Below, in pieces: positions 10,526 to 63,645 of a stretch of 64,000 nt of DNA. The stretch is from Sinohyriopsis cumingii (lineage: Eukaryota; Mollusca; Bivalvia; Unionida; Unionidae). The stretch is taken from NCBI GenBank assembly GCA_028554795.2, contig CM068829.1, positions 136,903,579 to 136,967,578 of the forward strand. Reading direction: 5' to 3'. Positions within the stretch are counted from its first letter, which is position 1. Each line of letters begins with the position of its first letter. The position numbers and the translations under genes are program-made. Below the pieces are notes generated by a model that was not told where the DNA came from, did no database searches, and saw nothing but the letters and a program-made list of their open reading frames with translations.

Positions 10526-13430
10526 GAAACCTATAAATTGATATCAAATGTGTTAACATCGGTGGTTCTTTACAATTGGCATGACTTATTTGATTATATA
10601 CAAACCATCAAAAAACGGCAAGGGTAGAAGAGAGTGGCAAAGATATGAAGATCGGTAAGTCTCAAGCAATACCGAGACAAAAAAGGCAACTTTCAAGGTA
10701 GCATTTTCACACATTTATATTGACACGGGTCGTTTTAGACTAATGAGAAACCAATAAATGGATATCAAATATGTCCAAATCTTTGGGTTTTTTTTACGAT
10801 TAACATGACATATTTAGCCTTATAGAAAACGATCATGTTGCAAGGATATAGGCGCACGGACAGAGAAATGAAGATGTACTTAAGATACATACACATAACT
10901 TTTACTGTTTTATTGCTTAAGTATATGCTTCATATCATTAGTATCAGCATCGAGATATGTGATACCATCGCAAAACATCAATGGTAGAGGCACGTAACAA
11001 GAATATAAGATTGGCAATAGTAAAGTCGCAAAGGATAATGGGTAAAATATATTAACTTTTCTAGGTTGCATTTTCACACATTTCTGTAGGCATATATCAA
11101 TTTAGACTGATGAGAAACCTATCAAATAATACCAGATTTGTCAAAATCTTTGTGTGCTTACGATTGGTATGACTTATTCGACTCTAAGATAAACGTTCGT
11201 GTTGTAAAGATCTAGGAGCACTAACATTCAAATGATTATCATCGAACTATATGGTACCATCTCAAAGCGGCAAGGGTAGAGGCACGTAGGTAGAATATGA
11301 TGATCCGTTGATGATCCGTAATATCGCAAGCGACACCGAGTAAAAAATATCAACTTTTTTACTTGCATTTTCACACATTTATATATTTCACAGATCAATT
11401 TAGATTGATGAGAAACTTATCAATTGATATCAAATTCTTCTAAATCGCGTTTTTAAAAAAATTACTAATGTTGTAACTTATTTGCTTATATGGACAACGC
11501 ACATTGAGAAAGACATTGAGCTGACATACAGACACATAAAGATGTACTTTATAAGATGCATACACATATTATATACTGTTGTATAGCTTTCCCTATATGC
11601 TTCAAATCTATACTATTAACATTGAAGTAGGTGGTACCGTGGCAAACGGCAATGGTTGATGGACGTATCAAGGATATGAAGATGGTTAAAGTCGCAACCG
11701 ATACCGAGCCAAAAATATAAACTTTTTTATTTTGCATTTTCGCACATTTATGTTGGCACAAATCGATTTAGACTGATGAGAAAATATCAACTGATATCAG
11801 ATTTGTCTAAATCCGGGTTTATTTACTATTGTTATGACTTATTCACCTATATGGAAAACGATCGTATAGGAAGAGAGGGCGAAAGGACAGACAAATGAAG
11901 ACGTACTTAATAAGATACATGCACATATTATTTACTGTTGTACAGCTGTAATTACATGCTTCAAATATATAGTATTAGCAACGAAATATGTGGTACGATC
12001 GCAAAACGGCAATGGTAGATTCACGTACCAAGGATATGAAGATCGGTAATGTCGCATCCAATATTCAGTAAAAAGAACAAAACGATTGATTTTGCATTTT
12101 CACACATGTCTATTGGCAGATCGACTTAGTCTCATGAGAAACCTATCAATTGATATCAAACTTGTCAACATCGCTGGTTGTTTGCGATTGGTATGACTTA
12201 TTCACCTATATGGAAAATATTTGGTTAGGAAGGCACTAAACGCAAGGACGTACAAATCAAGACGTACTTCATAAGATGCATACACACATATTATTTACCG
12301 TTGTGCAGCTTTTATTATATGTTTCAGATTTATAGAATTAGCATCGTAAAAATGTGATACGATCGCAAAACGGGAATGGCAGATGGACGTAGCAAGGAAT
12401 CGATGATCGGTAACGTTGCAAGCGATACTGAGTGAAAAATATTAACTTTTCTATTTTGCATTTTCACCCATTTATATTGGCACAGATCTATTTAGACTCA
12501 TGAAAAACTTGTCAACTGATATCAAACGTATTAAAATCGTTCTTTGTTTGCGATTGGTATGACTTATTCGCCCATATGGAAAACGTTCGTATAGATCAGA
12601 TGTAGGCACACGGAAAGGCAGATAAAGACGTGCTTAATAAGATACATACACATATTTTATAATTATGTACAGCTTTAATTCTATGCTTCAGATCTATAGT
12701 ATTAGCATGGAAGTATGTGCGACCATCGCAGAACGGGAACGCTGTATGAACGTAGCAAGGATATGAAGATCAGTAAAGTCGAACCCAATATTCAGTAAAA
12801 AGTACACTTTTTTGTATTTTGCATGTTAACACATGTCTATTGGCACAGATAGAGTTAGACTGATGAGAAACCTATATAATAATATGAAATTTGTCAAAAT
12901 TGGTATTTGTTTACTATTGGTATAACTTATTCGTTTATATCGAAACCGTTCGTATAGGAAGGCATTGGGCGCACGAACATATATATGAAGACTTACTTAA
13001 TAAGATACATACACATATTATTTACTGTTATACAGCTTTAATTATATGCTTCAAATCTATAGTATTAGCATCCAATTATGTGCTACCATCCTAAACGGCA
13101 AGGATGGAAGCATCAAGGATACGAAGATCGGTAAAGTCGCAAGCGACAATGAGTCACAAATAGCAACTTTTTATTATTCATTTTCGCCATATTTTTTTAT
13201 TGTGTGTGTGTGTGTGTGTGTGTGTGGCATAGATCGATTTAAACTGATGAGAAACCTAAAAATTGATATCAAATATGTCGAAATCGGTGGTCGTTTACGA
13301 TTGGTACAACTTATTTACCTATGTGGAACATGTTCGTGTAGGAAGGCATTTGGCGCACGGTAAGACAAATGAAGACGTACTTAATAAAATATATTAACAT
13401 GTTATGCTGTTGTTTAGCTTTAATTTTATG
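10526..13430 (+). repeat. Tandem array, unit about 364 bp, about eight degenerate copies
   Basis: The phrase gatgagaaacctatcaattg recurs in variant form near 10,526, 10,740, 11,106, 11,407, 11,770, 12,134, 12,495, 12,861 and 13,246. Most spacings fall at 361-385 bases. Each unit also carries tttgcattttcacacattta, a block like attggtatgacttattcgcc, and ttagcatcgaagtatgtg. Units are diverged by many substitutions and short indels. No open frame is conserved between units, so the array is non-coding. The last unit runs into the repeat at 13,428, and a partial unit heads the repeat at 652, so the array and that repeat are probably parts of one element family. Confidence 0.8.
13200..13227 (+). repeat. 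(TG)n microsatellite
   Basis: A run of TG dinucleotides interrupts one array unit. Confidence 0.9.
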
Positions 13431-13996
13431 CTTGAAATCAGTAGTGTCAGCATCGAAGTATGTTGTAAACTCCCCCTCCCCTTAGTACGCTACTGCAAGC
13501 ACACTTTGTCAAATTCTAACAGGCACTAACTTTCTTGAAAATTATAATTATCAAAAAAATTCTGGATTCGTATATTATAACCTTATAATGCGCCTTCATT
13601 TTCCCTCAGGTAGGTCTCCAGGTCGAGTTGTCAAGAACAACAGGAACCAATATCGTACATTCTTTGTTAAGCGATCGCTCCGGTGGTGCAGTGTCTCTAC
13701 AGAGCGTCCGCCTTGGATGCGAGAGGTCGCGGATTTAAACCCCGGCCGAATCATACTAAAGACTTGTAAAAATGGCACTAGCAGCTGCCTCTTTTGGCGC
13801 CCATCATTAAGAGGTTAGTGTTCGGATTGGTCGGACAGGTGTCAGGATAATGGGATTGGGTGGGACAAAATGCTGTATGTTTGTGGCATGATGCCACATT
13901 GCTGCACATCATTATAAACTGTCACAATGCAGACATGGTAGCGATATGATTGCATTTTTTTAAAGCTACGTAAAAAATTACACACACACACACACT
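13428..13996 (+). repeat. 430-bp dispersed repeat with SINE-like segment, copy 2
   Basis: This is homologous to 652-1,090 and extends further 3' to a CA-repeat tail at 13,979-13,995, as seen in the 47.0 kb SINE. The tRNA-like part is near 13,690-13,745 (gagcgtccgcc, then a degraded B box atttaaaccccgg). The 3' body (agaggttagtgttcggattgg) matches the 47.0 kb SINE. Confidence 0.7.
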
Positions 13997-29335: not shown

Positions 29336-29536
29336 TGGTACATGCCATGTTTACTGCTGCTGCTCATAGCAAGAGTTCGAAACCTGTGTTAAGCTATGCA
29401 CTTTTACAGTATGATCGAGATACACCACATGACAAGATTAGTCAGCATGTGTTTGTATCAAGTGAAATAAAACAGAGAAAATCAAAACTTAAACACAGTG
29501 ACATACAGAAACTTAATATTGGTATAAACACATTGA
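29336..29536 (+). CDS. Putative host exon, interrupted at its splice donor by the Polinton
   Basis: An acceptor-like ttgatttctag precedes an open frame containing VLSYALLQYDRDTPHDKISQ and SSEIKQRKSKLKHSD. That pattern recalls the N-terminal segment of proteins with a C-terminal DUF4806 domain (a hydrophobic VxYxxD strand followed by xSSxIKxR). At the 3' end the pre-insertion sequence would read attga|gtatat, a plausible donor that leaves one base of a split codon. The exon beginning near 43,255 needs exactly that phase. The Polinton target duplication (attgag) covers the exon end, so the left copy has lost its donor and the right copy (39,316-39,322) keeps it. The link to the 43-46 kb exons is inference from phase and family resemblance; the exon itself is moderately supported. 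Confidence 0.45.
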
Positions 29537-29537
29537 G

Positions 29538-29993
29538 AGTAGTGAAGTGGGACGATATAGCGTCAATGGGACTTACCATTAAAAACCACCCTGGGACGAT
29601 ATAGCGTCAATGGGAAATTTAACATTGTGGAAACCCCTGGGATGATATAGCATCAAGGGGAATTTAACATGGGAATATGGGACTGTTTAGCGTCAAGGGG
29701 AATTGAACAGGGTGGGACTGTATAGCGTCAAGGGGAATTTAACATGGGCAAAAAAAAAAAAAAATCTTGGGCCTGTTGAGCGTCAAGGGGAAATGGAGCA
29801 GGGTCGGGACCCTATTTTAATAAGGTCCCGACCTGATGGGTCTATGGAAATGGAACAGGCGAAAATTGAAACAGGGAGGGGTCTCTATTTTTTATTTTTT
29901 TTAAAACAAAAAAAAAAATAAAAAAAGGGTAGGCAGTGAAAGTCAAGATCTTTTCGAGACCTATGAGTGGCCCTGAAAAGGGCCTTTGGGTTT
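29538..29993 (+). repeat. Polinton left terminal inverted repeat
   Basis: It is inverted relative to 38,851-39,315 with few differences by eye. It contains six copies of a motif like gggacgatatagcgtcaa (starts 29,549, 29,593, 29,639, 29,679, 29,714 and 29,769), a perfect 10-bp palindromic stem (29,802-29,811 against 29,824-29,833), an A/T-homopolymer zone, and at the inner end a histone-type stem-loop on the minus strand (29,969-29,984). Confidence 0.95.
29969..29984 (-). terminator. Histone-mRNA-type 3' stem-loop, left TIR
   Basis: On the minus strand this reads ggcccttttcagggcc: a 6-bp stem with a TTTC loop, 5' flank cccaaa and 3' flank actca, followed about 12 bases on by gaaaaga. It lies 23 bases after the stop of the minus-strand gene at 30,008. 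In animals this exact architecture is the replication-dependent histone mRNA 3'-end signal, bound by SLBP and cut with the U7 snRNP. Confidence 0.8.
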
Positions 29994-30007
29994 ATGTTAA
30001 TATGCCC

Positions 30008-30238
30008 TTAACATAAAGGGCATCTGTGACTTCTTCTTGTCCTTAGGCTTCGCCTGACTGCAGGACCATAGACTAAAACTCTTTTGAGACATCCTTGCCT
30101 CTCCACATAGATCCTACGTATCCATAGGCTGGTATCTGTCCTATGGACAACTGTCCACTTGGATCGGACGTACATCGGTATGTCTGTCCTGAACATCATC
30201 GAAGACACAAGCATAGAAGATTGAACGTTGGTCCACAT
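30008..30238 (-). CDS. Small Arg-rich protein of unknown function, leftmost Polinton gene
   Basis: I do not recognise this 76-residue protein. It starts MWTNVQSSMLVSSMMF, is rich in Arg (RSLRTRRSHR near the end) and finishes CPLC. I chose the ATG at 30,238 over the longer upstream frame. A TATA box (TATAAATA on the minus strand, 30,290-30,283) lies about 45 bases before it, a spacing shared with other genes of the element. The stop falls 23 bases before the histone-type stem-loop in the left TIR. It shares a divergent promoter region with the plus-strand gene at 30,435. A basic nucleic-acid-binding role is possible but is only a guess. Reality of the gene rests on promoter and 3'-signal context. 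Confidence 0.5.
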   Translation of the reverse strand: MWTNVQSSMLVSSMMFRTDIPMYVRSKWTVVHRTDTSLWIRRIYVERQGCLKRVLVYGPAVRRSLRTRRSHRCPLC

Positions 30239-30282
30239 GTTGAGGCGCCGAGAACAGGTGAAGGAATGCAGTGAACTACACT

Positions 30283-30387
30283 TATTTATAGGGAGAGGAA
30301 GGATTGAAACGGAGTTCACTGACCAATCCAAACACGCCCACATCCAATCCGAAGAGAGCAGTCTGTGACGTCATGTGGTCTATATAG
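30283..30387. promoter_or_regulatory. Divergent promoter pair with CRE-like site
   Basis: A minus-strand TATAAATA (30,290-30,283) serves the leftward gene. A perfect cAMP-response-type palindrome tgacgtca (30,366-30,373) and a plus-strand tatatag (30,381-30,387) precede the rightward gene whose ATG is at 30,435. The sites are seen directly; their use is inferred from spacing. Confidence 0.6.
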
Positions 30388-30434
30388 ATTTGCTAGCACC
30401 TGTGTGCAGTCAATTCATGCGACAGTTTTTCAAC

Positions 30435-31008
30435 ATGACGGAAACTCAGAAAACGATAAATTGGGGTGCACCAGCTGTGGAGACTACCCAAGGGAAACCG
30501 GACTTACTTTCAGAAGAGGTGAATTGGGATTTTGTGGATTTTCTTACCTCGCAAGAATTTGTTCCGGAACCTTCGTCACCTTCTCCTTCATTACCACACG
30601 TGGAGAAATTTAGACAGAGACAGAAAGAAGAATTGGAGAAATTTATACAACAGCAAAAGGAAGCGGAACAAGCTTTTCTCCTACAGCAACAGCAGCAAAA
30701 AGAAGAGGTAAGAAAAAAACAAGAAGAAGAAGAAGCAGCAGCAAAGAAACAAGGGTGTGAAAATCAAATGGTCACGGTACTGTTAGACATTTTAGCGGAG
30801 TTAAGAAGTCTGAAACAAATGTTATCAGACTTCTTTATTACGACCAAAGAGAATACGACCTTCCCGAGCTAAACACTCCAACCCTGTGACTAAGCCTCCC
30901 GTGCCACCCTTAGTGATTTCAACCAAATCATCATCATCAACACTACGCAGTCCAGAAGTAGGCCTTGGCCGTGGCAAAGGCTTAAGGCAGTTAAAGTTGA
31001 TTGCTTAA
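30435..31008 (+). pseudogene. Gln/Glu-rich coiled-coil protein with basic tail, frameshifted
   Basis: I do not recognise the family. The frame from the ATG at 30,435 begins MTETQKTINWGAP. Residues about 55-105 are a charged Gln/Glu/Lys-rich stretch (KQKEAEQAFLLQQQQQKEEV) likely to form a coiled coil, followed by a Leu-rich heptad-like segment (ILAELRSLKQMLSDFF). That frame stops at 30,872. The +1 frame then stays open to 31,008 with clear compositional bias: Pro-rich KPPVPPLV, then basic GLGRGKGLRQLK. A single indel at about 30,800-30,860 would join them at roughly 190 residues. The later stop leaves 21 bases before a histone-type stem-loop, which supports 31,008 as the true end. A TATA box and CRE-like site lie upstream. 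It could be a DNA-binding or scaffold protein; unknown. Confidence 0.6.
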
Positions 31009-31029
31009 ACTCACCCCTACACCAAAAAA

Positions 31030-31045
31030 GGCCCTTTTCAGGGCC
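31030..31045 (+). terminator. Histone-mRNA-type 3' stem-loop, internal
   Basis: This is the same 16-mer ggcccttttcagggcc as in both TIRs, here with the canonical flank accca. It is followed by cgtctgtcgaaaagagatag, a purine-rich block at the distance of a histone downstream element. The downstream similarity to the TIR sequence (tctgtcgaaaagagatagactttcaattgcc against tctcgaaaagatcttgactttcattgcc) shows that the whole 3'-end module was duplicated inside the element. Confidence 0.82.
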
Positions 31046-31204
31046 ACCCACGTCTGTCGAAAAGAGATAGACTTTCAATTGCCAACATCCATTCAAACTA
31101 TAAAAAAAAAACATTTTACCTCTGTAGTACGTGTGTATGAGTGTGTGAGTGTAGGTTCTTATTTTAAAATCAAAACCCAAAGACACTTACCTTTTAATAC
31201 ATAA

Positions 31205-31210
31205 TTTATT
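31205..31210 (-). terminator. Poly(A) signal for the CCHC gene
   Basis: A minus-strand AATAAA lies about 130 bases beyond the CCHC gene stop. This gene therefore appears to use ordinary polyadenylation, unlike its neighbours with stem-loops. A single hexamer is weak evidence. Confidence 0.35.
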
Positions 31211-31339
31211 CTTTTATAAATATTTACAATCCAATTCACAATTCACAACAGAGCACTTTAAAAAATTCATAAACTTCTTCTGTCTCATTGTTCACTCTCT
31301 GAGTTTTTTGAATTTCTTCACCACCACAGTCTTTTCCTC

Positions 31340-31720
31340 CTATTCCTCCTCACTTTCTTCTCTTCTTCTTTTCTTCTCCTGTTTCTTTTTCTTCACCTGT
31401 TTTCTTCTTCTTCTTCCTCTGAAGAATCCCTCTCTTCTTCTGACTCCTTGTTTCTTTTTTGGGCAATCTGGAGACCAGTGTCCTTTTTCTTGACAATAAT
31501 AACAGGTATCTTGACTTTTGTCTTTTCTAGCCCCTTTTTTTCTTTTTTGACGGTCTGGACACTCTGAAGACCAATGCCCTTTCTTCTGACAGATATAGCA
31601 AGTATCTTGACTTTTATCTTGAAAGGAAGGAGAGTAGTCCCTCGGCTGGTCTGAAGAGAATTTTTGGATGACCCCTCGCAAAGCTCTGATGAAACGTTCG
31701 ATCTGGGTAGTCTCTTCCAT
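31340..31720 (-). CDS. Two-knuckle CCHC zinc-finger protein
   Basis: This 126-residue protein carries two C-x2-C-x4-H-x4-C zinc knuckles, CYICQKKGHWSSEC and CYYCQEKGHWSPDC, each preceded by the repeated SQDT. A very basic and then Glu/Arg-rich tail follows (RRKQVKKKKQEKKRRREE). Knuckles of this type bind single-stranded nucleic acid, as in retroviral nucleocapsid and CNBP-like proteins. I took the ATG at 31,720 because a TATA box (TATATAAAA, 31,783-31,775 on this strand) lies about 55 bases upstream. The gene is divergent from PolB and shares its promoter region. It is intact. In the element it could coat DNA or RNA intermediates; that is inference. CCHC proteins are not standard Polinton core genes. 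Confidence 0.75.
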   Translation of the reverse strand: MEETTQIERFIRALRGVIQKFSSDQPRDYSPSFQDKSQDTCYICQKKGHWSSECPDRQKRKKGARKDKSQDTCYYCQEKGHWSPDCPKKKQGVRRREGFFRGRRRRKQVKKKKQEKKRRREESEEE

Positions 31721-31774
31721 CGTTGTGCTCGGTTTGAGAGTGAAATGAATAGTGAAAGGACAAGACACATACCC

Positions 31775-31807
31775 TTTTATATACGCTGGTCTGCTATGAC
31801 TATAAAT
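31775..31807. promoter_or_regulatory. Divergent TATA boxes between CCHC gene and PolB
   Basis: The minus-strand TATATAAAA (31,783-31,775) faces the CCHC start at 31,720, and the plus-strand tataaat (31,801-31,807) precedes the PolB ATG at 31,855. Both TATA-ATG spacings are close to 50-55 bases. Confidence 0.65.
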
Positions 31808-31854
31808 TAGTCCATGGTGTTTAAACTTTAGTCATTTGACTTTTTGCTATCAAG

Positions 31855-34800
31855 ATGAAACGATCCAATTCATTTGAGAAGAAGGAAGAAGAAAGTAAGA
31901 GGCAGAAACGTGCTTTATCGCCTCGTACCAGGGCTGAAGTCTTGGCACAAATTCATGCCAGTGATTTTGAAGAGGACATGAGTGAACCAGAATCCAAACC
32001 CTCTAAACAAAGTTCACCACCCTTAGTCAACCGTGAAAAGTACTATTCCATTCAAGAGACGGAAGAGCATCCCTCTAGAAAATTTAGAACTACAGCTTAC
32101 AAATACACGGTGAAGTTTAAAGATTTCAAGTCCGAAGTACTGTTAGAGAAAGCAGAAGGGTTCATCACCGAGATGTGGATTGAAATGCTCAGCATGTTTG
32201 GCCTCTCCACCCTGTCTGAGCGAAGGACAAGAACGAGTGCATTGTTCAACTGGTCTGCGCACGTTTGTCAGCCCTGCCTGTTACCAACAACATTTGAAGA
32301 TGCAAGGTTCACAGAAGAAATGTGCTTGTCAGCTGCTGAGATTGTGCCCTACCTGTGGACAAGGCATACTTACCAATAATGCCAAGGCACACCTGTGTCG
32401 AGGAAAGAAAAAATGTCACATTTGCTGCCACATCGTGGACTTGGAACACGAATGCTATGTGCAAAAATACCAACCCCAACCAGAGAAAGAGATCGGTCAC
32501 AAGAAGAAAGGCAATTTCATCTTTTTCGATTTTGAATGCATGCAAGAGACTGGTATTCACATTCCTAATTTCTGCGTGGCTCATCGAGCGTGCGAGAAGT
32601 GCATTCAAGAACCTATTTTCAGTCATTGCCTTCACTGCAGCAAGATTTCTGGAGGACGTGAAAAAATCTTTCGAGGACCGAACACGCTAGCTGATTTCGC
32701 TCGATGGGTCTTACACCCCATCGACAAGACGTGGATCCAAGAGGACATCGAACGTTACGGAGATTGTCATCGTCATGCCACAGTGATGGCTCACAATTTC
32801 TCCGGATACGATGGACAGTTTCTTCACAGATACTATACAGAACATGGCATCGAACGTCCTAAAGTCACTTTGAATGGAGCCAAAATCATTTTCATGCAAG
32901 TGGGACAAGTACAGTTTAAAGATTCGATGAGTTACTTAGCCATGCCTTTGAGTCGAATGCCTAAAACGTTTGGAATGACAGAAATGGCTAAAGGGTGCTT
33001 TCCACACTTTTTCAATACGGAAGCCAATCAACACACCGTTCTACCCCATTTGCCTGAGGCTCAGTATTACGACCCTGACAACATGCGTACCGAACAACGA
33101 GAAGCTTTCTACGCTTGGTACCAGGCTCACGCCTCTGACCCTTTCGACTTTCAGGAAGAAATGCTAAAGTATTGTCGTTCCGACGTGGACATTTTACCGT
33201 GTTGCTGTGGAAAATTTCGAGAACTGTTCATGGAACACGGAGGGGTCGATCCTTTCAAAGAAGCTTGCACCATTGCCAAAGCATGTTCCTTAGTGTACCG
33301 GCAATGATTCATGCCTGAAAACACCGTGGCTGTCATCATTCCTCAAATGACCAACTATGTCAAACGTCAATACTCGGTCAAAGCCCTACGCTGGTTACAT
33401 TACTTGTGTGACAAGGAAGACAAATGGATTCAGCATGCCCGCAACGGAGGGGGTGAAAAGACCATCAGAATGCATTCGGTCGATGGTTGGGACTTAGAAA
33501 ACCCCAAGATTGTGTACGAGTTTAAAGGTTGCTTATTTCACGGATGCCCCGTCTGTTACCCTGACCGTGGCACTAAAAATCAGTTTTTACAATGAACCAT
33601 GGAAGACTTGTACCAGGCCACATGTCAGCAACGCCTAAAGTTAGAACAGGAAGGATACTAAGTGGTGGAAATGTGGGAACACGAGTACCATCACCGTTTG
33701 AAAACCGATCCAGAGTTTAAACACCTCGTGGAAAGTTACCAGTTCATGGACCCCCTGAACACGAGGGATAGTTTGTACGGAGGAAGGACCAATGCCACCA
33801 ATTTGCTGTACCAAGCCGACGAAGAGAAAGGAGAAGAAATCAAATACTTGGACGTGTGTTCACTGTATCCCTACGTGTGCAAATATTGTCGCTTTCCTGC
33901 AGGGCACCCACAATTGTTGACGGAACACATCGATTTGAAAAACATTCGACAATATGAAGGCTTGATCAAATGTAAAGTTTTGGCTCCCACTGACTTGTAC
34001 CATCCCGTTCTACCTCACCATTGTCAAGACAAACTGATGTTTCCTTTGTGCCGTACTTGTGCTGAAACGTGCAACCAAGACCAGCCTTGTCAGCACACCC
34101 ATGAAGAACGGGCCTTGACGGGGACGTGGGTCAGCGTAGAATTGTTCAAAGCTATGGACATGGGATACCAACTGTTAGAAGTGTATGAAATTTATCACTT
34201 TCCCAAGACAGAACAATACAACAAGGGTGACCCCACTCAGAAAGGCATTTTGGCAGACTACGTGGATGCCTTTTTGAAACTAAAGCAAGAAGCCAGTGGT
34301 TATCCGTCCTGGTATCACACTCCCGAAGACCAAAAGACATTCAAAGAGAAATACTGGGCACAAGAAGGCATTACTTTAGATCACATCGAGAAAAACAAAG
34401 GCAGGCGATCGTTTGCCAAAGTGATGTTAAATTGCTTGTGGGGTAAAATGGCACAACGACCGTGTTTACCCAAGAATATTTGACAGAACCTTCCTGCTAC
34501 TTCCAGATGATTCACAACAAAACTAAATTCATCAAACACGTGGACGTCGTTCGCGAAGATTTGATCTTAGTCAATTACGAAGAAGATCTGGACTTTGTAG
34601 AAGCCGATCCTTTTGGAAATGTCATCATTGCAGCTTACGTGACAGCTCATGCTCGCTTAAAACTGTACGAAGCTTTAGAACTGTTAGGGGAACGCGTCCT
34701 GTGCTTTGACACGGATAGTTGCATCTACATCGATCACCCGAGTCAACAGCACTCTAACATCGAAGGAGACCGTTTAGGAGCCTGGACAGACGAGCATTCT

Positions 34801-35151
34801 GACGACAAGATTCTAAGTTTCGCCAGTGGCGGTCTTAAAAATTACGGCTACGAATACTGGGACAAACAAGGAGAAGTGCACACGAAGTGTAAAGTGAAAG
34901 GATTGACTCTGAATTATCGTACCAGTCGAGTGGTGAACTTTGGCGTATTGAAAGAAGCTTTGCAGTCTAGAGAAGATGAACACTTTAAAGTGACCACCTA
35001 TCAACCGAACAAGATTGTACGTTTACCCACTCACCACATCGTCAGTCGACCCTTGGAAAAAGTCTGTCAAATCGTGTATCAGAAGCGAGTGCGGCTTCCC
35101 AATCACTTTATATTGCCATATGGACATGTCGGTATAAAACATTGGTTGTAA
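31855..35151 (+). pseudogene. Protein-primed family B DNA polymerase (Polinton PolB), broken
   Basis: This is the replication polymerase of the element, with a 3'-5' exonuclease domain and then the polymerase domain. A Cys-rich, zinc-finger-like N-terminal segment spans about 32,180-32,460. Exo I is FFDFEC (FDFEC at 32,525), Exo II AHNFSGYDGQF (32,789) and Exo III YCRSDVDIL (33,170). Polymerase motif A is DVCSLYP (33,851), motif [12 protein letters not shown] (34,415) and motif C DTDS (34,708). All catalytic Asp/Glu residues of these motifs are present, and the length of about 1,100 codons fits Polinton PolB. Breaks seen: a frame change near 32,200, in-frame stops TGA at 33,305, TGA at 33,593 and TAA at 33,659, and a one-base shift near 34,460. 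The start at 31,855 follows a TATA box by about 50 bases. The gene is inactive as it stands. Confidence 0.9.
35133..35139 (+). promoter_or_regulatory. TATA box of BIR gene 1
   Basis: The site tataaaa lies inside the last codons of PolB, 36 bases before the ATG at 35,175. Confidence 0.6.
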
Positions 35152-35174
35152 GTGGATAGCCACTCACCAGAAGC

Positions 35175-35614
35175 ATGACTTCGCCACAGCAAGAATCAAG
35201 TGAGAAACCTGATGAGAACTCCAAGTTCAAACCCTACCATTTTCCAGTCTTCTTACCTGACTATTGTGATTGTGCCCGTCGATTGGACACATTTCAGAAA
35301 AGTTTACGGATAGGGAAGGATTACCTTCTTCGCATGTTTTAGCTAGAACAGGATTTGTCTACTTGGGACCTGAGTCAGGATTGGGATACGAAGTACAGTG
35401 TTTCGCTTGTGGACTGAAGTTACGAATGGATCTATGTATCTATAAAGGTTCAGCTATTCTGGAACACACTCGATGGTCTTTGCACTGCCCTTACCTTTCT
35501 ATGGCCTTTCCACCCATTACACTACGGTACAATTATGACGGTACCTTAGAGACAGTACCTTCAAAAACTAGATATAAAAAAGGAACGATGTACAAGCTTG
35601 AGACTGCATTGTGA
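35175..35614 (+). pseudogene. BIR-domain (IAP-like) protein 1, frameshifted and divergent
   Basis: From the ATG at 35,175 the first frame gives a short N-terminal region ending in CARRLDTFQK, which corresponds to the start of a BIR fold. The rest of the domain lies in another frame from about 35,305: HVLARTGFVYLG, then CFACGLKLR...LEHTRWSLHC. One small indel near 35,300 separates the two. Compared with the canonical BIR zinc site C-x2-C-x16-H-x6-C, this copy has 18 residues before the His and lacks the usual Trp, so it is divergent even apart from the frameshift. BIR proteins bind caspases or other death-pathway partners and are often captured by large DNA viruses. It is a paralogue of the next gene. 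Confidence 0.75.
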
Positions 35615-35618
35615 CTAG

Positions 35619-35628
35619 TATAAAAAGG
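35619..35628 (+). promoter_or_regulatory. TATA box of BIR gene 2
   Basis: The site tataaaaagg starts five bases after the BIR gene 1 stop and 63 bases before the ATG at 35,682. Confidence 0.7.
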
Positions 35629-35681
35629 GGCTATGGTCAAGATCGATAGTTCATTGTGACTACCAAGACCAAGCGAACAAG

Positions 35682-36317
35682 ATGAATCCTTTCAGAGAAA
35701 CACAAAACAAGTTCAGAAAGGCACAATTCAAGTTTGGGGCTTCTGAAGTGGAATGTGATTGTGAGCCTTGCGATGGGAACGATGCTGTACGCTGTGACCT
35801 TAGCGATGCCGTAAAGCATCATGACAACTTTGTTCTCACTACCCCTCTCATGGAAAGTGATGCTGTGCGTGTCAAACCTGAGGGATGCGAAAGCGATGCT
35901 GCTCGTCCTCTTGGACACTTTACTGGGTTTCATTTTAAATGTGGATGTTCACCTTCACGTCTACCCCCCTACGGATGTCATCCAGACTTGAGCAAACTCC
36001 TGTCCATGTCACCCAGCCCTCATCGAAACGAACCTGTGAAAGACGAATATTCGTTCCCTGTGTGTTTGTCGGAATACTGCGACTTTGAAAATCGTCTTCA
36101 ATCATTCAAAGGAAAATGGCCTAAGTATCTGGGAGGACCGATCCCCAAAGAATTAGCCAGAGCCAGATTTTTCTACTTGCACGAAGGGGATAAAGTCAAG
36201 TGCTTCAGTTGCGGTGTGTCACTTCACCACTGGGAACCACAAGATTCGGCCTATCTAGAACATGCTCGTTGGTCACCAAATTGTCATTACTTACCCTTAG
36301 TGGGACCGAGAAATTGA
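35682..36317 (+). CDS. BIR-domain (IAP-like) protein 2
   Basis: This intact frame of 211 residues has one C-terminal BIR domain at about residues 130-206. It runs YCDFENRLQSFKGKWP, LARARFFYL and CFSC (residues 174-177), then 16 residues, His, six residues and Cys (EHARWSPNC). The zinc ligands and Trp match the canonical BIR pattern. The N-terminal half has no known domain. It is Cys-rich (CDCEPCD, KCGCSP) and holds four NDAV/SDAV-type repeats at about residues 33-75. No RING finger follows, so it is a BIR-only protein and not an E3 ligase. Inhibition of apoptosis in the host cell is the likely role by family, unproven here. It follows its own TATA box and ends 11 bases before the next ATG. 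Confidence 0.85.
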   Translation: MNPFRETQNKFRKAQFKFGASEVECDCEPCDGNDAVRCDLSDAVKHHDNFVLTTPLMESDAVRVKPEGCESDAARPLGHFTGFHFKCGCSPSRLPPYGCHPDLSKLLSMSPSPHRNEPVKDEYSFPVCLSEYCDFENRLQSFKGKWPKYLGGPIPKELARARFFYLHEGDKVKCFSCGVSLHHWEPQDSAYLEHARWSPNCHYLPLVGPRN

Positions 36318-36328
36318 AGTAACTTACC

Positions 36329-36718
36329 ATGTCGTTAAAGAAGAAACCAGATTGGTTAGGAGTCAAATGTTGGACATCATCGAGACCAGTATTTAAACTT
36401 CATTTCAAAAACGATATTGAATCATTACCTAAAGAACTGCAAGAGAAGATTTACAAGGAAGTTTGGCAGGGGCTTGCCAGAGTGAAATCTCAATGGATAA
36501 CTGTAGAACTTTTATTCCGAGAAATTCACAAGAGATAAGTGAAAAAAGTCAACCAGTGTGTTAGATTTCTCTGGGTCAAGGGTGCATTCATACTATTATA
36601 TCGCTTTAGACCGTTTACATCAAAAGAGTTCAATGAGATTCTTGAACGTTACCCTGAATGGCAGTGGTCTGAAATTACTTACTATGTCGATTACTTTTGC
36701 TCTAGGAGAAGATTGTGA
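36329..36718 (+). pseudogene. Unrecognised protein of about 129 codons with one in-frame stop
   Basis: I do not recognise the family. The frame starts MSLKKKPDWLGVKCW and stops at TAA 36,536. The same frame then continues open with coding-like composition (CVRFLWVKGAFILLYRF, then ERYPEWQWSEITYYVDYF) to a TGA at 36,716. The continuity of aromatic- and charge-rich sequence across the stop suggests one gene interrupted by a nonsense mutation, though programmed readthrough cannot be excluded. The ATG is 11 bases after the BIR gene 2 stop and I see no TATA box of its own, so it may be translated from the BIR 2 transcript. Confidence 0.5.
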
Positions 36719-36799
36719 ATTGTACGTTTTAAGTGATGATCTTGGTAATATAAGATTTTAGTCTTAGGGGGATGTTTTCCTTCAGGTCTGCGCTTTAAC

Positions 36800-36806
36800 T
36801 ATAAGA
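36800..36806 (+). promoter_or_regulatory. TATA box now separated from the last gene
   Basis: The site tataaga lies 25 bases before the nested insertion junction. Removing the insertion (36,832-38,213 plus one 8-bp duplicate) puts it about 55 bases before the ATG at 38,245, the same spacing as other genes of this element. Confidence 0.5.
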
Positions 36807-36831
36807 ACCTACAGTATTCGTCATTCAGACC

Positions 36832-38213
36832 GTGTGATCGACGAGAGAATCTAATCCGAAACCGGCTAAGCAATGAAATTATCTAAATTACACTAATAAA
36901 TACTTACATAAAATATATATATATCAAATTTGGACCAATGGCGAAGACAAGGATTCGGTCTCCCCGAACTCTCCATTTATGAGAGGCGAGTGTGATCGAC
37001 GAGGGAATCTAATCCGAATCTAGCCAAAAGTATTACAAAATAAATACACTCACAAAACAAGTACCAAATTCTGAACAATAGAAAAACTCATTTTATCAAA
37101 ACTAGCCCACTGACTGATAAAACTCTACAAACAAATATCATTAAATTAAAAAACACCTAGTTCAAATACCAGGAAGAAATATACAGGGGGTGGGTGGTGG
37201 GAAAAACAAAACAAACCTTCTCCACTTCTCCTAACTTAATACTCACCTAACACCCTAACTAACAGCTCCAAAAGTCTATCTTCTACATAGGTGACAGCTA
37301 AGACAAAAACTAGGTATAACCATATAGTCCCAAAATAGAACGTAAAAGGTGGTCGCAAGAATAGACCATCAGGGATCCCCCGTATTAAGACCCTAAACTT
37401 ACACATATAAGGTAGTCAAAAAAACCCAACGACTATCGGGCCCTGCGGCACAATGCTGCAAATATAACAAATATATAGAATACCACCCCAAAAATTACTT
37501 GTATAAGGTAGTCAAAAAAAACCAGTGACTATAGGGCCAGCAGCACAAGGCTGCAACCAAAATTTACAACTAGATAATTAGGACCCAAAAACAATTACTC
37601 AGTAAGATGGAAAAAACACCAACTCCATCCAGGGCCAGCAGCACAAGGCTGCAAAACCAATCGACAAATACTGTCACCTAAAAGCTAACATCGACCTCAA
37701 TAGACTCTATCTCTCTTAAAAACAGCACAGAGTTTTTATGATTCAAAATTCCAAAGACGGAAATTTAGAACAAAAATACCCTGGATCGGAAAAACCCTGC
37801 TAACCTGTGGCAAGACAACTCCGCCCGAGCCTGACCACTTTCGCCCTTTGCGACGGACAGACATCAAAACACATACGTGCAGTGCACGCATCATAAATTA
37901 AAAATACGGACTAGATCGGGTCCAATCCCACTAGTCGCTAATCAATGCAAATGAATGACAGAGTGTGTGCTGGGTCCAATCCCACTCAAACAAAACATAG
38001 GCCTTACAATCAGATCGATGTGTACACAAAAGTACCTTGACCTGACGGCCCAATCAATTAGTGTTCTGTGAACACAGATATGCCTGGAGGAAGTGGCTCC
38101 ATTCCTTCCTCCAAGGAGTAATCAGTTAGGTGCCTGTGGCATCATAAACCAGTGGTACATGCTCAATGCGAAGCGCACGCCACTATAATTCAACTCAACA
38201 ACAACAACAATCG
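36832..38213. mobile_element. Nested 1.38-kb non-coding insertion with 8-bp duplication
   Basis: The direct repeat ttcagacc flanks it (36,824-36,831 and 38,214-38,221). The left part contains a tandem pair headed by gtgtgatcgacgag.gaatct (36,832 and 36,989). The middle has three units of about 97 bp sharing cagcacaaggctgcaa (about 37,445, 37,545 and 37,640). The right end is a CAA repeat (38,195-38,210). No frame above 60 codons was seen. The CAA tail and tandem 5' units suggest a retroposed non-coding element of unknown family, but the 8-bp duplication would also suit a hAT-like element. It differs in texture from the surrounding Polinton and splits a promoter from its gene. Confidence 0.55.
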
Positions 38214-38244
38214 TTCAGACCATTCCACGGAATAAACAAAGAAG

Positions 38245-38841
38245 ATGGAGGTGACAAAATTATTCAATCTATTAAGAGATATCTATTTTTGGATAATGGA
38301 TGTTGAATATGTTGTAGGAAGAATAGAAAAGGAATGGAGTGATGGAAATAGGCAAGACTTGTTAACTATTCAAGTCAAAGGACTAAAGGTGGCCGGAGAT
38401 CTCATCGCAGGGATGATAGAAGAAGAAGTCAACAAGTCAAGCGGATTTACTGACCCACCTTATGTCAGAGTGGGAAGTTTGAAGGAAGCACTGGACCATG
38501 TCATCCAAGTCGGGTGCTTCCTGGAAAAAGTATTGTATTGGATGGAGTGGTGATACGTAAAATGGGGGTTCGACCAGTTGACAAAAATGGAAGAAGTAAT
38601 GAGGAAAGTGCTGACGGAAGAGGTAAAGAACATCAAAGAAAAGTGGTCTAAGGAAAGAAAAGAAGAAGAAAATAGAAAGAGAAAAAAAAGCTTTGAGAAA
38701 CTCAACAATAACTGGATAAGAATACAGGAGAAATTCCGAGTGATAGGTCATCCTGACTGGATGCCTGAGTCAGAAATAAAGAAGAAGATGACAGGAATAT
38801 TGGTAAAAGTTAGAAGTTGGTTGAAGAAGTGGAAGAGTTAG
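38245..38841 (+). pseudogene. Unrecognised rightmost Polinton gene, one in-frame stop
   Basis: I do not recognise the family. The frame begins MEVTKLFNLLRDIYFW and reaches a TGA at 38,551 after 102 codons. It then stays open in the same phase to 38,841, giving about 198 residues overall. The first half is helical-looking with hydrophobic repeats (LIAGMIEEEVN, LKEALDHVIQVGCFLEKV). The second half is strongly basic and charged (KEKWSKERKEEENRKRKK), likely coiled-coil, ending in VRSWLKKWKS. The end of the gene lies 18 bases before the histone-type stem-loop at the inner edge of the right TIR. Its own TATA box seems to lie beyond the nested insertion at 36,800. It might be nucleic-acid binding; unknown. 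Confidence 0.55.
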
Positions 38842-38850
38842 AAGAAGAAG

Positions 38851-39315
38851 AAACCCAAAGGCCCTTTTCAGGGCCACTCATAGGTCTCGAAAAGATCTTG
38901 ACTTTCATTGCCTACCCTTTTTTTTTTCTTTTTTTTTTTGTTTTAAAAAAAATAAAAAATAGAGACCCCTCCCTGTTTCAATATTCGCCTGTTCCATTTC
39001 CATAGACCCATCAGGTCGGGACCTTATTAAAATAGGGTCCTGACCCTGTTCCATTTCCCCTTGATGCTCAACAGGCCCAAGATTTTTTTTTTTTTTTTTT
39101 TTTGCCCATGTTAAATTCCCCTTGACGCTGTACAGTCCCACCCTGTTCAATTCCCCTTGACGCTAAACAGTCCCATATTCCCATGTTAAATTCCCCTTGA
39201 CGCTATATCGTCCCAAGGGTTTCCATAATGTTAAATTTCCCATTGACGCTATATCGTCCCAGGGTGGTTTTTAATGGTAAGTCCCATTGATGCTATATCA
39301 TCCCACTTCACTACT
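38851..39315 (-). repeat. Polinton right terminal inverted repeat
   Basis: This is the inverted copy of 29,538-29,993, with the same motif array, T-rich zone, imperfect palindrome (39,014-39,046, one mismatch) and stem-loop module at the inner end. Confidence 0.95.
38860..38875 (+). terminator. Histone-mRNA-type 3' stem-loop, right TIR
   Basis: This reads ggcccttttcagggcc with 5' flank cccaaa and 3' flank actca, and gaaaagatcttg about 12 bases on. It sits 18 bases after the stop of the rightmost gene and in the same orientation. Confidence 0.82.
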
Positions 39316-39321
39316 ATTGAG

Positions 39322-60739: not shown

Positions 60740-61335
60740 AAGAATTATATTACAAGTTATCCATTACAAATGTATCACATAACTTAAGTAATTCGTACTA
60801 TAAGATATCCCTTACAATATAATCTCCTGACTTAAGTAATTTGTACTATAAGTTATCCCTTACAATATAATCTACTAACTTAAGTAATTTGTAATATAAG
60901 ATATCCCTTACAACTGTATCTCCTAACTTAAGTAATTTGTACTATAAGATATCCCTTATAAAATAATCTCATAACTTAAGCAATTTGTAATATAAGATAT
61001 CCCTTACAACTGTATCTCATAAATTAAGTAATTTGTAATATAAGATATCCCTTACAACTGTATCACATAACTTAAGTAATTTGTAATATTAGATATCCCT
61101 TACAACTGTATCTCCTAACTTAAGTAATTTGTAATATAAGATATCCCTTACAACTGCATCTCATAACTTAAGTAATTTGTAATATAAGATATCCCTTACA
61201 ACTGTATCTCATAAATTAAGTAATTTGTAATATAAGATATCCCTTACAACTGTATCTCGTAACTTAAGTAATTTGTACTATAAGATATCCCTTACAACAT
61301 AATCTCCTAACTTATGTAATTTATACAATAAGATA
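60740..61335 (+). repeat. 48-bp minisatellite, about 12 copies
   Basis: The unit contains aagatatcccttacaactgt, then atctc.taacttaagtaatt, then tgtaatat. It includes the palindromes acttaagt and gatatc. The copies are closely similar, so the array is recent or homogenised. Confidence 0.95.
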
Positions 61336-61339
61336 CACC

Positions 61340-62940
61340 CGATAACAGAATCAAACTCTTAAACAAAATCAACGAAAACACAAAACAATTTATTTTACCT
61401 GAATTAATATAATGAGTTATCAAGCCATGTAATAAAATCTTATCACCCGCGGACATAATTTTCATAAAATTAGCGTGAGCTTCTATAATTACCTTATGAT
61501 CCTTTTCCAAATTAATAAACATGTTATTTAAAATCCTAGTAAACAACACTTCAAATATTTCGTCAGTACACAATATTAATGGTGGTTAACAACATAAAAC
61601 TTTACGAATGTATGAAATTAGAGCTCCTGTTGGTCCAAATTTTGTTCGTTTCATGTAATATTTAGCATTAAGTCTTGGAGACTGAAAATCGGCTGCACAC
61701 TGAGCATGAGTGGTCTTCGCTGCTGTACGACCTTTCATGCAGTGTGTACTATATTTTTAATCTTTACGACATTATTAATCCTACAAAATACAATGTTCCA
61801 TATTTATGTTTTCCAATAACTGCTATCAAGGTAATATTTCAGGATTTTATTTATATGATGGAATTGTGGAATTTGGACTTGTGAGGGGGCTGTTGTTATT
61901 ATATCCCTGGGGCAACTTCGTCGTTTAATTGGTCCATTTAAATTTTCGATTTCTTTTTTCTACTTTGATAAAAAAAAATTTGTTTAAATTTTATATGGTA
62001 TCGCTAAATTCCTTCTATTTGACCGCCTTAATTTCAAAGTTTGATCACCACGTCAAATGGATTGCTTAAACAAAATGCTCATTTAGTGGTGACCATCAAA
62101 CTCGTTGTGCCCATAGTGTATCCCAAAAGCGCAATCCTTTCTTTTTGCATAAAGTTTCCGAATTTAAAGCCCTTACTTAAACAAAGGACTTGGGGTGTAA
62201 AGATAGTTATGCCATGATTACCATTGATTTGCAACAAGACCACATTTTACAAACTCTGATCCTAGCTGCTTAAAATTTGCAATGTGATCCATTCACGTAT
62301 GTTACAAATGAACCCTTTCCTTCTCATCCGGGCGTTTATTGCATACTCATCTGCCCATGATATGCATTAATGACCTGTGATGGAAAAAATATAGTACCTC
62401 TGGTAGCGGATGATCTAATACCTGGTAACCAGCCATGACACTAACTTAGCACGCTCCAAGCCATCAAAGCTGAGAACAAAATCCAAAACACCATCTGGAC
62501 TATAAAATTCCTCACTAGTGCGCTTTAATTGTGCCCAGAGACAGATTTTCTGTGTAACGAAGCACAAATTCACTCAGTGATGGTTGCTTTAACGTCGTGT
62601 GTATTTGATACAACAAGCATTAACTGCAAGATCTGTTAAAACGCCAGAAGCCAGAATATTCAAATGGCCTGATTATAAAAGTATTCTACGAAAATACATG
62701 CATGCATATGATGAACTGAAACCGTTAAAATATCAAATAGCGAAATTTACTGATGCATCGGCGTACTGGAATTGTTAACGGATATATTTAATTTACTGAT
62801 GCATCGTTGTACTGGAAGTTTTAATGGATTTGAAAAAGATTTTAAAGCTCTAAGCAATTGTAATTATGCGTATTATACCAATGGAAAGTGTTTGACGCTG
62901 GTAAAAAAAGAGAGTTTAATGTCGTGTTAATGAACTAAAT
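61340..62940. other. No gene recognised between two minisatellites
   Basis: Short frames only. A duplicated phrase (tttactgatgcatcg.cgtactgg) occurs near 62,745-62,770 and 62,793-62,818. Confidence 0.4.
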
Positions 62941-62944
62941 ATAT

Positions 62945-63645
62945 ACATTTCCCTTCAAGATGATCACTATAAACATCGATTTCTCTACAGGATGATCACT
63001 ACATACAGCTGTATCCCTTCCAGATGATCACTAAATATATACATTTCCCTTCAGGATGATCACTAAATAGAGCTATTTCTTTTGAAGATGATCACTAAAT
63101 GTATACATTTATCTTCCAGTTGATCACTAAATACAGCTATTTCCCTTCAAGATGATCACTAATAACAACTATGTCCCTTCCACACTAAATACATATATTT
63201 CTCTTCAAGATGATCACTCAATACAGCTATTTTCCTTCAAGATGATCACCCACTACAACTATTTCCCTTCCAGATAATCACTCAATACAGCTATTTCCCT
63301 TCCAGATAATCACTCAATACAGCTATTTTCCTTCAAGATGATCACTCAATACAGCTATTTCCCTTCCAGATGATCACTCAACTACAACTATTTCCATTCC
63401 AGATAATCACTCAATACAGCTATCTCCTTTCATGATGATCACTCAGTAAAGCTATTTCGCTTCAAGATGATCACTAAATATAAATAGTTCCCTTCAAGAT
63501 GATCACTCAATACAACTATTTCTCTTCAAGATGATCACTAAATACTAAATGATCACTAAATGATCACTAAATACAACTACTTCCCTTCCAGATGATCACT
63601 CAGTACAGCTATTTCCCTTCAAGATGATCACTCAGTACTTCAAGA
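62945..63645 (+). repeat. Minisatellite, unit about 32 bp, about 20 copies
   Basis: The unit reads close to gatgatcactcaatacagct followed by atttcccttcca, with length variants of 27-40 bases. Each unit has a TGATCA palindrome. Confidence 0.93.

Follow-up and report, generated by a model that had tools for sequence, protein, structure and literature searches.

Polinton/Maverick elements carry a protein-primed family-B DNA polymerase, and the SLBP/U7 pathway is, to our knowledge, normally regarded as reserved for replication-dependent histone genes. Within this pathway, the S-phase-specific protein SLBP binds a stem-loop in the mRNA, U7 small nuclear RNA (snRNA) pairs with a purine-rich element, and CPSF-73 cuts, as given in the passages of PMC7807067 on histone mRNA 3′ ends. 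The terminal inverted repeats of Polintons/Mavericks bear (AG)3 or (AGT)2 at their ends; vertebrate Mavericks have the end motif (AGT)2//(ACT)2 and 6-bp target-site duplications, as cited in PMC8097293, and the terms ‘stem-loop’ and ‘polyadenylation’ are absent from the main text of that source. Here, we describe a 9.8-kb element (positions 29,538-39,315) within a 64,000-nucleotide stretch of DNA from Sinohyriopsis cumingii (contig CM068829.1, assembly GCA_028554795.2; ‘the window’), which holds three stem-loops of the histone type. Their arrangement suggests that a multicopy, virus-like element borrows the histone-mRNA machinery of its host, and this borrowing would probably serve to tie expression of the element to DNA replication.

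The element shares features with each of these systems. Like the vertebrate Mavericks (PMC8097293, passages on element ends), it has a 6-bp duplication and inverted repeats ending in (AGT)2//(ACT)2, and its DNA polymerase is of family B (DNA_pol_B_2), protein priming being putative here. Unlike Polintons/Mavericks, it is only 9.8 kb long, this copy yielded no gene for an integrase, protease, ATPase or capsid, and it has BIR and CCHC genes together with histone-type 3′ ends. With the replication-dependent histone mRNA 3′ end (RF00032; SLBP/U7) it shares the stem, the CCAAA/AC flanks of the Rfam model and a purine block, and with the histone-type genes of the host it shares a spacing of 13 nucleotides (nt) and a similar stop-to-stem distance. 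However, the signal follows non-histone genes, and its loop is TTTC where the two host genes read have TTTT. The histone H2A.X, for which dual 3′-end processing is reported (PMC7807067), is comparable in having a possible poly(A) signal downstream of its stem-loop and purine element, but it is a cellular histone gene, whereas the genes here belong to a mobile element. Among the papers listed in searches of an open-access library, none was found to describe histone-type 3′ ends in Polintons, viruses or transposons.

Three histone-type signals in one element

The same 16-mer, GGCCCTTTTCAGGGCC, occurs three times in the window, compared with 0 expected in 100 shuffles. The copies lie at 29969-29984 on the minus strand, and at 31030-31045 and 38860-38875 on the plus strand, just where the original prediction, a note made from the letters of this DNA, had placed them. 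The identical 16-mer is among the sequences by which human histone stem-loops were located in PMC7807067. Its reading of them as histone-type 3′ signals is borne out by matches to RF00032 (Histone3, gathering score 34) at 29944-29989 (37.1 bits), 31025-31070 (36.0 bits) and 38855-38900 (37.1 bits). A cmscan run over all 64 kb of the window returned no other Rfam match at gathering level, and a permissive Rfam scan of the element gave no RF00032 match beyond the three. The purine block GAAAAGA begins 13 nt past each stem (29949-29955, minus strand; 31059-31065 and 38889-38895, plus strand), again as proposed. The window has 318 perfect hairpins with a 6-bp stem and 4-nt loop (both strands counted), and only the three sites combine a loop of the TTTC type with a preceding AAA, a following AC and a purine block no more than 24 nt away.

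Each signal stands in the orientation of the gene that it follows, and the stop codons of the left gene, gene 2 and right gene lie 23, 21 and 18 nt before the stem, in agreement with the predicted range of 18-23 bases. The left gene (30008-30238, minus strand; TATA word at 30283-30290) encodes a 76-amino-acid, arginine-rich protein with 13 arginines. Gene 2 (30417-31008, plus strand; TATATA at 30381) consists of an open reading frame (ORF) at 30417-30872 and a tail in another frame at 30814-31008; in the copy L020, both parts form one 192-codon ORF that ends 24 nt before the stem. The right gene (38245-38841, plus strand) is interrupted in the window copy, with ORFs at 38245-38553 and 38587-38841, compared with a single 196-codon ORF in the copy L021. 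The open frames ended by the three stops have 120, 64 and 95 codons, in the same order. On its own, a stop no more than 25 nt away is frequent at random positions; ORFs of at least 64, 95 and 120 codons closing that near are found at 2.5%, 0.6% and 0.25% of random positions, respectively, in the left flank of the window. A chance resemblance to the histone signal would have to contend with the shuffles, the gathering-level scores, the 3 of 318 hairpins and the retention of the site in 60 of 60 copies described below, and is given practically no weight. Stem-loop patterns run against viral contigs point in the same direction: they found 0, 0, 7 and 9 stretches, and none of these 16 loci with a canonical core had an RF00032 match at gathering level.

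Two of the signals are located in the terminal inverted repeats, as had been noted. They are, however, one sequence duplicated by the repeats, so the element has two independent sites and not three. The internal copy shares 42 of 51 bases with the terminal copy, and one may therefore be a duplicate of the other; between them, 28 of 28 signal columns are identical, compared with 14 of 23 other columns (p = 2.7e-4). The inner edge of the terminal repeats falls a few bases 5′ of the stem, and protein-primed elements need end signals. Both points would suit a hairpin that acts at the level of DNA, in replication, integrase binding or packaging, and that resembles the histone stem-loop by coincidence. 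The loop, the CCAAA/AC flanks, the purine block and the 13-nt spacing would be irrelevant to such a hairpin, yet all are histone-like; furthermore, one copy is internal, and every copy lies just past a stop in the orientation of its gene. A DNA-level origin of the resemblance is very unlikely in our assessment. A second hairpin around the purine block was also considered and rejected: it was matched in stability by 24 of 2000 flank shuffles for one window copy and 236 of 2000 for the other, and it was not conserved across other rows of the element (mean z -0.67, 13 rows).

The 2.90-Gb host assembly has tandem histone arrays with units of ~8.3 kb, of which 5 loci were read from 30 fetched. All five have two RF00032 matches (35.9 and 37.7 bits), in which both stems read GGCCCTTTTTAGGGCC, GAAAAGA lies 13 nt past the stem, and stops are found 28 and 27 nt before it. 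Pfam, applied to the ORFs of one array locus (L056), identified the first as a core histone (PF00125, 165 bits); the second, presumably H4, has a histone fold, with CENP-T_C and TAF scoring above cut-off and PF00125 falling just short of it. Signals of this type, spaced as in the element, are therefore in use in the host; pairing of the shared GAAAAGA with host U7 is putative. Histone arrays in the same genome, along with the gene capture that is common in Polinton-like elements, would also be compatible with a histone 3′ end that was once acquired and then copied along without function. Against this, the element has the loop TTTC and the 5′ flank CCAAA, and the two host histone-type genes read have TTTT with TAAAC and AAAAC, which indicates that the element signal is not a recent copy of either gene. 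The comparison of element copies bears on the same question.

Conservation of the signal in other copies

Three queries selected copies without regard to the stem-loop being tested. The first was the 76-amino-acid left protein, for which 150 matches (87-100% identical) were scored of 18,149 candidates; the host genome contains at least 150 copies of this leftmost gene. The original prediction had named absence of the stem-loop from related copies as evidence against it. In a sample comprising the 60 lowest-scoring of the 150, the site is present in all 60 copies, 22-32 nt past the last sense codon, and is exact in 47; the remaining 13 have 18 mismatches in total (counted without gaps) over 960 positions. 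The GAAAAGA block is exact in 50 of the 60 and lies at 13 nt in 45. Relative to the window copy, silent and replacement differences have medians of 0.35 and 0.05, respectively (54 equal-length copies). Averaged over the 60 copies, the commonest letter reaches a frequency of 0.981 within the stem-loop itself, 0.957 for CCAAA, 0.907 for the purine block and 0.892 for AC. The five upstream bases average 0.870, the spacer 0.733 and the ten downstream bases 0.788; in the left gene, the first, second and third codon positions have 0.931, 0.975 and 0.815 (54 copies). These frequencies indicate that the signal is under more constraint than its surroundings. So few changes in the stem-loop, set against this silent divergence and a variable spacer, are difficult to reconcile with a functionless passenger.

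With a second query, of 151 bases spanning the end of gene 2, 40 matches were scored of 955 candidates, all at least 99% identical and 22 of them at 100% (the window itself included), a sign of recent amplification. This query did not cover the left stem-loop, yet that site was found in 30 of 30 fetched loci and was exact in 26; one of the 30 is the window itself (L044), leaving 29 others. The third query was the coding-only DNA of the left gene of L019, a member of another subfamily that was originally chosen by stem-loop score. It gave 40 scored matches of 1,710, at 99-100% identity, and the next 110 bases were read at 20 of the 40 places: the site was kept in 20 of 20, exactly in 17, with the purine block in all 20.

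Selection by the stem-loop itself led back to the same family. A genome search with RF00032 scored 75 matches of 589,472 first-look candidates; none is at the histone-array places identified, and because the array stem-loops are missing from it, the list of 75 is far from complete. Of the 75, 28 were examined, namely the eight top scorers (L018-L025, 44.1-45.6 bits) plus twenty others, among them the six weakest (34.5-36.5 bits), and all 28 have similarity to the element family outside the stem-loop too. The best eight score above the host stem-loops read, and the three in the window are on a par with the host. Four of these loci (L018, L022, L023 and L025) have a second site that belongs to a further element gene, unrecognised in the window copy; in L025 (104-535) it is a 117-codon ORF with its stop 36 nt before its own histone-type stem-loop. 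The stem of this gene reads AGCCCT-TTTC-AGGGCT in L022, L023 and L025, a two-sided change that keeps the outer pair, and in L018 it has an A-C mismatch. A two-sided change that maintains pairing also argues against a histone end carried along passively, an explanation already disfavoured and, in our view, very unlikely.

The coding status of the genes was assessed by the ratio of replacement to silent substitution rates (dN/dS) against other copies. For the left gene, comparison with L019, L020 and L024 gave dN/dS of 0.07-0.08, with dS of 1.16-1.43. For gene 2 in the same copies, dN/dS is 0.23-0.50 in the N part and 0.49-0.64 in the tail, with dS of 0.08-0.19. The C part of the right gene has dN/dS of 0.08-0.11 against L021 and L025 (dS 1.8-2.6, saturated), and its N part 0.31-0.34 (dS 0.32-0.48). 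The low ratios of the left and right genes against diverged copies count in favour of the proposed reading.

Several observations weigh against use of the signal by the element. Stems are altered in 13 of 60, 3 of 20 and 4 of 30 copies from the three queries, some with broken pairs, and an exact GAAAAGA is absent in 10 of the 60; such decay of single copies is as expected of dead insertions. Only six of the eight loci L018-L025 have a second, non-selected RF00032 match at E 0.01. The left gene has dN/dS of ~1 in two close copies (L051 and L031; 4 and 7 differences), as expected from drift after insertion. The silent divergence of the left gene in L019, L020 and L024 is far above that of the neighbouring gene 2, and this unevenness within the same copies implies that they may be mosaics, perhaps through recombination between subfamilies, and that the silent yardstick is rough. 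Codon-usage scores lent no support to a coding role of the left ORF, the C part of the right gene or the tail of gene 2; as this scoring is too weak for short genes, it was replaced by dN/dS, and we judge that the comparison of copies outweighs it. A scan with RF00066 (U7) gave no match in the host, and the controls were likewise silent, making it uninformative. Lastly, AATAAA words occur at 29891-29896 (minus strand) and 38951-38956 (plus strand), 72 and 75 nt past the terminal stems.

The positions of these AATAAA words make dual processing possible. The original prediction favoured processing by SLBP and U7 rather than polyadenylation; its histone-type signal is supported, and its exclusion of polyadenylation may be too strong. 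The stem-loop could be a real SLBP-binding site with many transcripts polyadenylated downstream, as for H2A.X, and might mainly add an S-phase isoform or boost translation. Set against this, the plus strand has neither AATAAA nor ATTAAA between the gene-2 stem and 36,895, and the terminal words lie within A/T-rich tracts, where such words arise easily. We regard dual 3′ ends as a serious possibility, although one short of even. They overlap with the reading that we favour, and that the element uses histone-type 3′ processing at all, in either form, is highly probable.

Anatomy and family of the element

The element is bounded by perfect 6-bp target-site duplications, ATTGAG, at 29532-29537 and 39316-39321. 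Its left terminal inverted repeat (29538-29993), the inner edge of which lies a few bases 5′ of the stem-loop, starts AGTAGTGAAG, and its right repeat (38851-39315) ends CTTCACTACT, with 95.3% identity between them over 465 columns. The ends read AGTAGT...ACTACT, which is the (AGT)2//(ACT)2 Maverick motif. The earlier label ‘Polinton-type’ is supported by these ends, the duplication and the family-B polymerase; the part that did not stand is the rest of the gene set, as neither an integrase nor a capsid gene turned up in the 9.8 kb of this copy. An RVE integrase had no match in 47 of 48 ORFs of at least 60 amino acids (some scanned from the first ATG only; the one left out straddles the left edge of the element), and such a gene may exist in decayed or split form, or in other members of the family. 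The same ORFs of this copy gave no Pfam match to a capsid, protease or packaging ATPase, and none to a histone, in keeping with the earlier statement that no histone gene is encoded. With no integrase or capsid match, the element is filed as Polinton-related and not as a complete Polinton. It is best explained as a member of a large, recently active Polinton/Maverick-type DNA element family in which gene 2 and the two outermost genes have genuine 3′ signals of the replication-dependent histone kind.

No viral-contig relatives were confirmed for two polymerase pieces and one BIR piece, a phage collection had no match to one polymerase piece, and a terminal-repeat pattern found one stretch (L008). 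A solved-structure search with one polymerase piece returned a single, unrelated weak match (E 0.023). Within each terminal repeat (29548-29803 and 39052-39305), a unit with GGGACGATATAGCGTCAA recurs in tandem as five to six degenerate copies, which are possibly replication- or protein-binding sites.

In order, the ORFs encode the arginine-rich protein (minus strand), gene 2 (plus), a CCHC protein (minus), the polymerase (plus), two BIR proteins (plus), a small ORF and the right gene (plus). The two-CCHC zinc-knuckle protein (31340-31720; TATA words at 31774-31783) is followed by AATAAA at 31205-31210 without a stem-loop, possibly an ordinary poly(A) signal, and AATAAA is also found beyond the BIR region. 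The family-B DNA polymerase region (DNA_pol_B_2; 31855-35151) is broken by in-frame stops and a frame change; its match to DNA_pol_B_2 falls into two pieces, and that to phrog_1907 into three, which are in order. Next to it, the two BIR-domain (IAP-like) ORFs (35160-36317) carry TATAAAAA at 35573 and 35619; in a mobile element they are possibly anti-apoptotic. TATA words precede the left gene, gene 2 and the CCHC, polymerase and BIR genes, and none of the same form was seen just before the right gene. Single-sequence structure models gave a beta-rich left protein at low confidence (predicted local distance difference test, pLDDT, 63) and a helical C part of the right protein (pLDDT 82, predicted template modelling score 0.42).

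The region 36780-38050 has no recognised gene; it contains a repeat of ~97 bp (37391-37654) and a 38-bp repeat (36832 and 36990), and sequence close to its left edge is shared with L018, L021, L022, L023 and L025. The copy L020 is rearranged: around its stem-loop, the window regions 30005-31443 and 31027-32178 are oppositely oriented. Two RF00032 matches, G000:C8:1900525 and 1910263, lie 9,738 bp apart on the same strand, approximately one element length, and are perhaps neighbouring copies. The host flanks in the window contain long tandem arrays at 10604-13467, 60745-61353 and 62934-63639.

Proposed 3′ processing and its significance

The analysis establishes how the signals are built, that they are conserved and that they match those of host histone genes. 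By position, RNAs of the element contain both cis-parts of the SLBP/U7 reaction, and from the sequence we infer SLBP/U7 binding, cleavage, S-phase timing and a benefit to the element. RNA polymerase II transcripts would probably start at the TATA boxes upstream of the genes; host SLBP would bind the stem-loop and the host U7 ribonucleoprotein would pair with the GAAAAGA block. CPSF73, which cleaves ~5 bases past the stem, would then cut the element RNAs a few bases past theirs. The products would be short mRNAs without poly(A) tails, accumulating when SLBP is abundant, in S phase, at the time when DNA of the element would itself be copied. AATAAA would instead serve the zinc-knuckle gene and, probably, the genes for the polymerase and BIR proteins, giving the element two expression classes.

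A broader scenario can be offered tentatively, and we hold it to be rather doubtful as a whole. A virus-like family may have put a whole set of genes under the histone regulon: the left gene, gene 2, the right gene and the further gene seen in other subfamilies. The conserved arginine-rich protein could package element DNA, being made, as histones are, only during DNA replication, and the copies could compete with host histone mRNAs for SLBP and U7.

As none of the 75 scored RF00032 matches was at the histone-array places identified, stem-loop scans of such genomes may fill up with element copies. If the proposed processing is correct, whether non-histone genes can live on histone 3′ processing would be directly testable by existing RNA methods. 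The family would be a clear example of a parasite that has commandeered the SLBP/U7 pathway, on several unrelated genes, and would explain how such elements could couple the expression of their genes to S phase.

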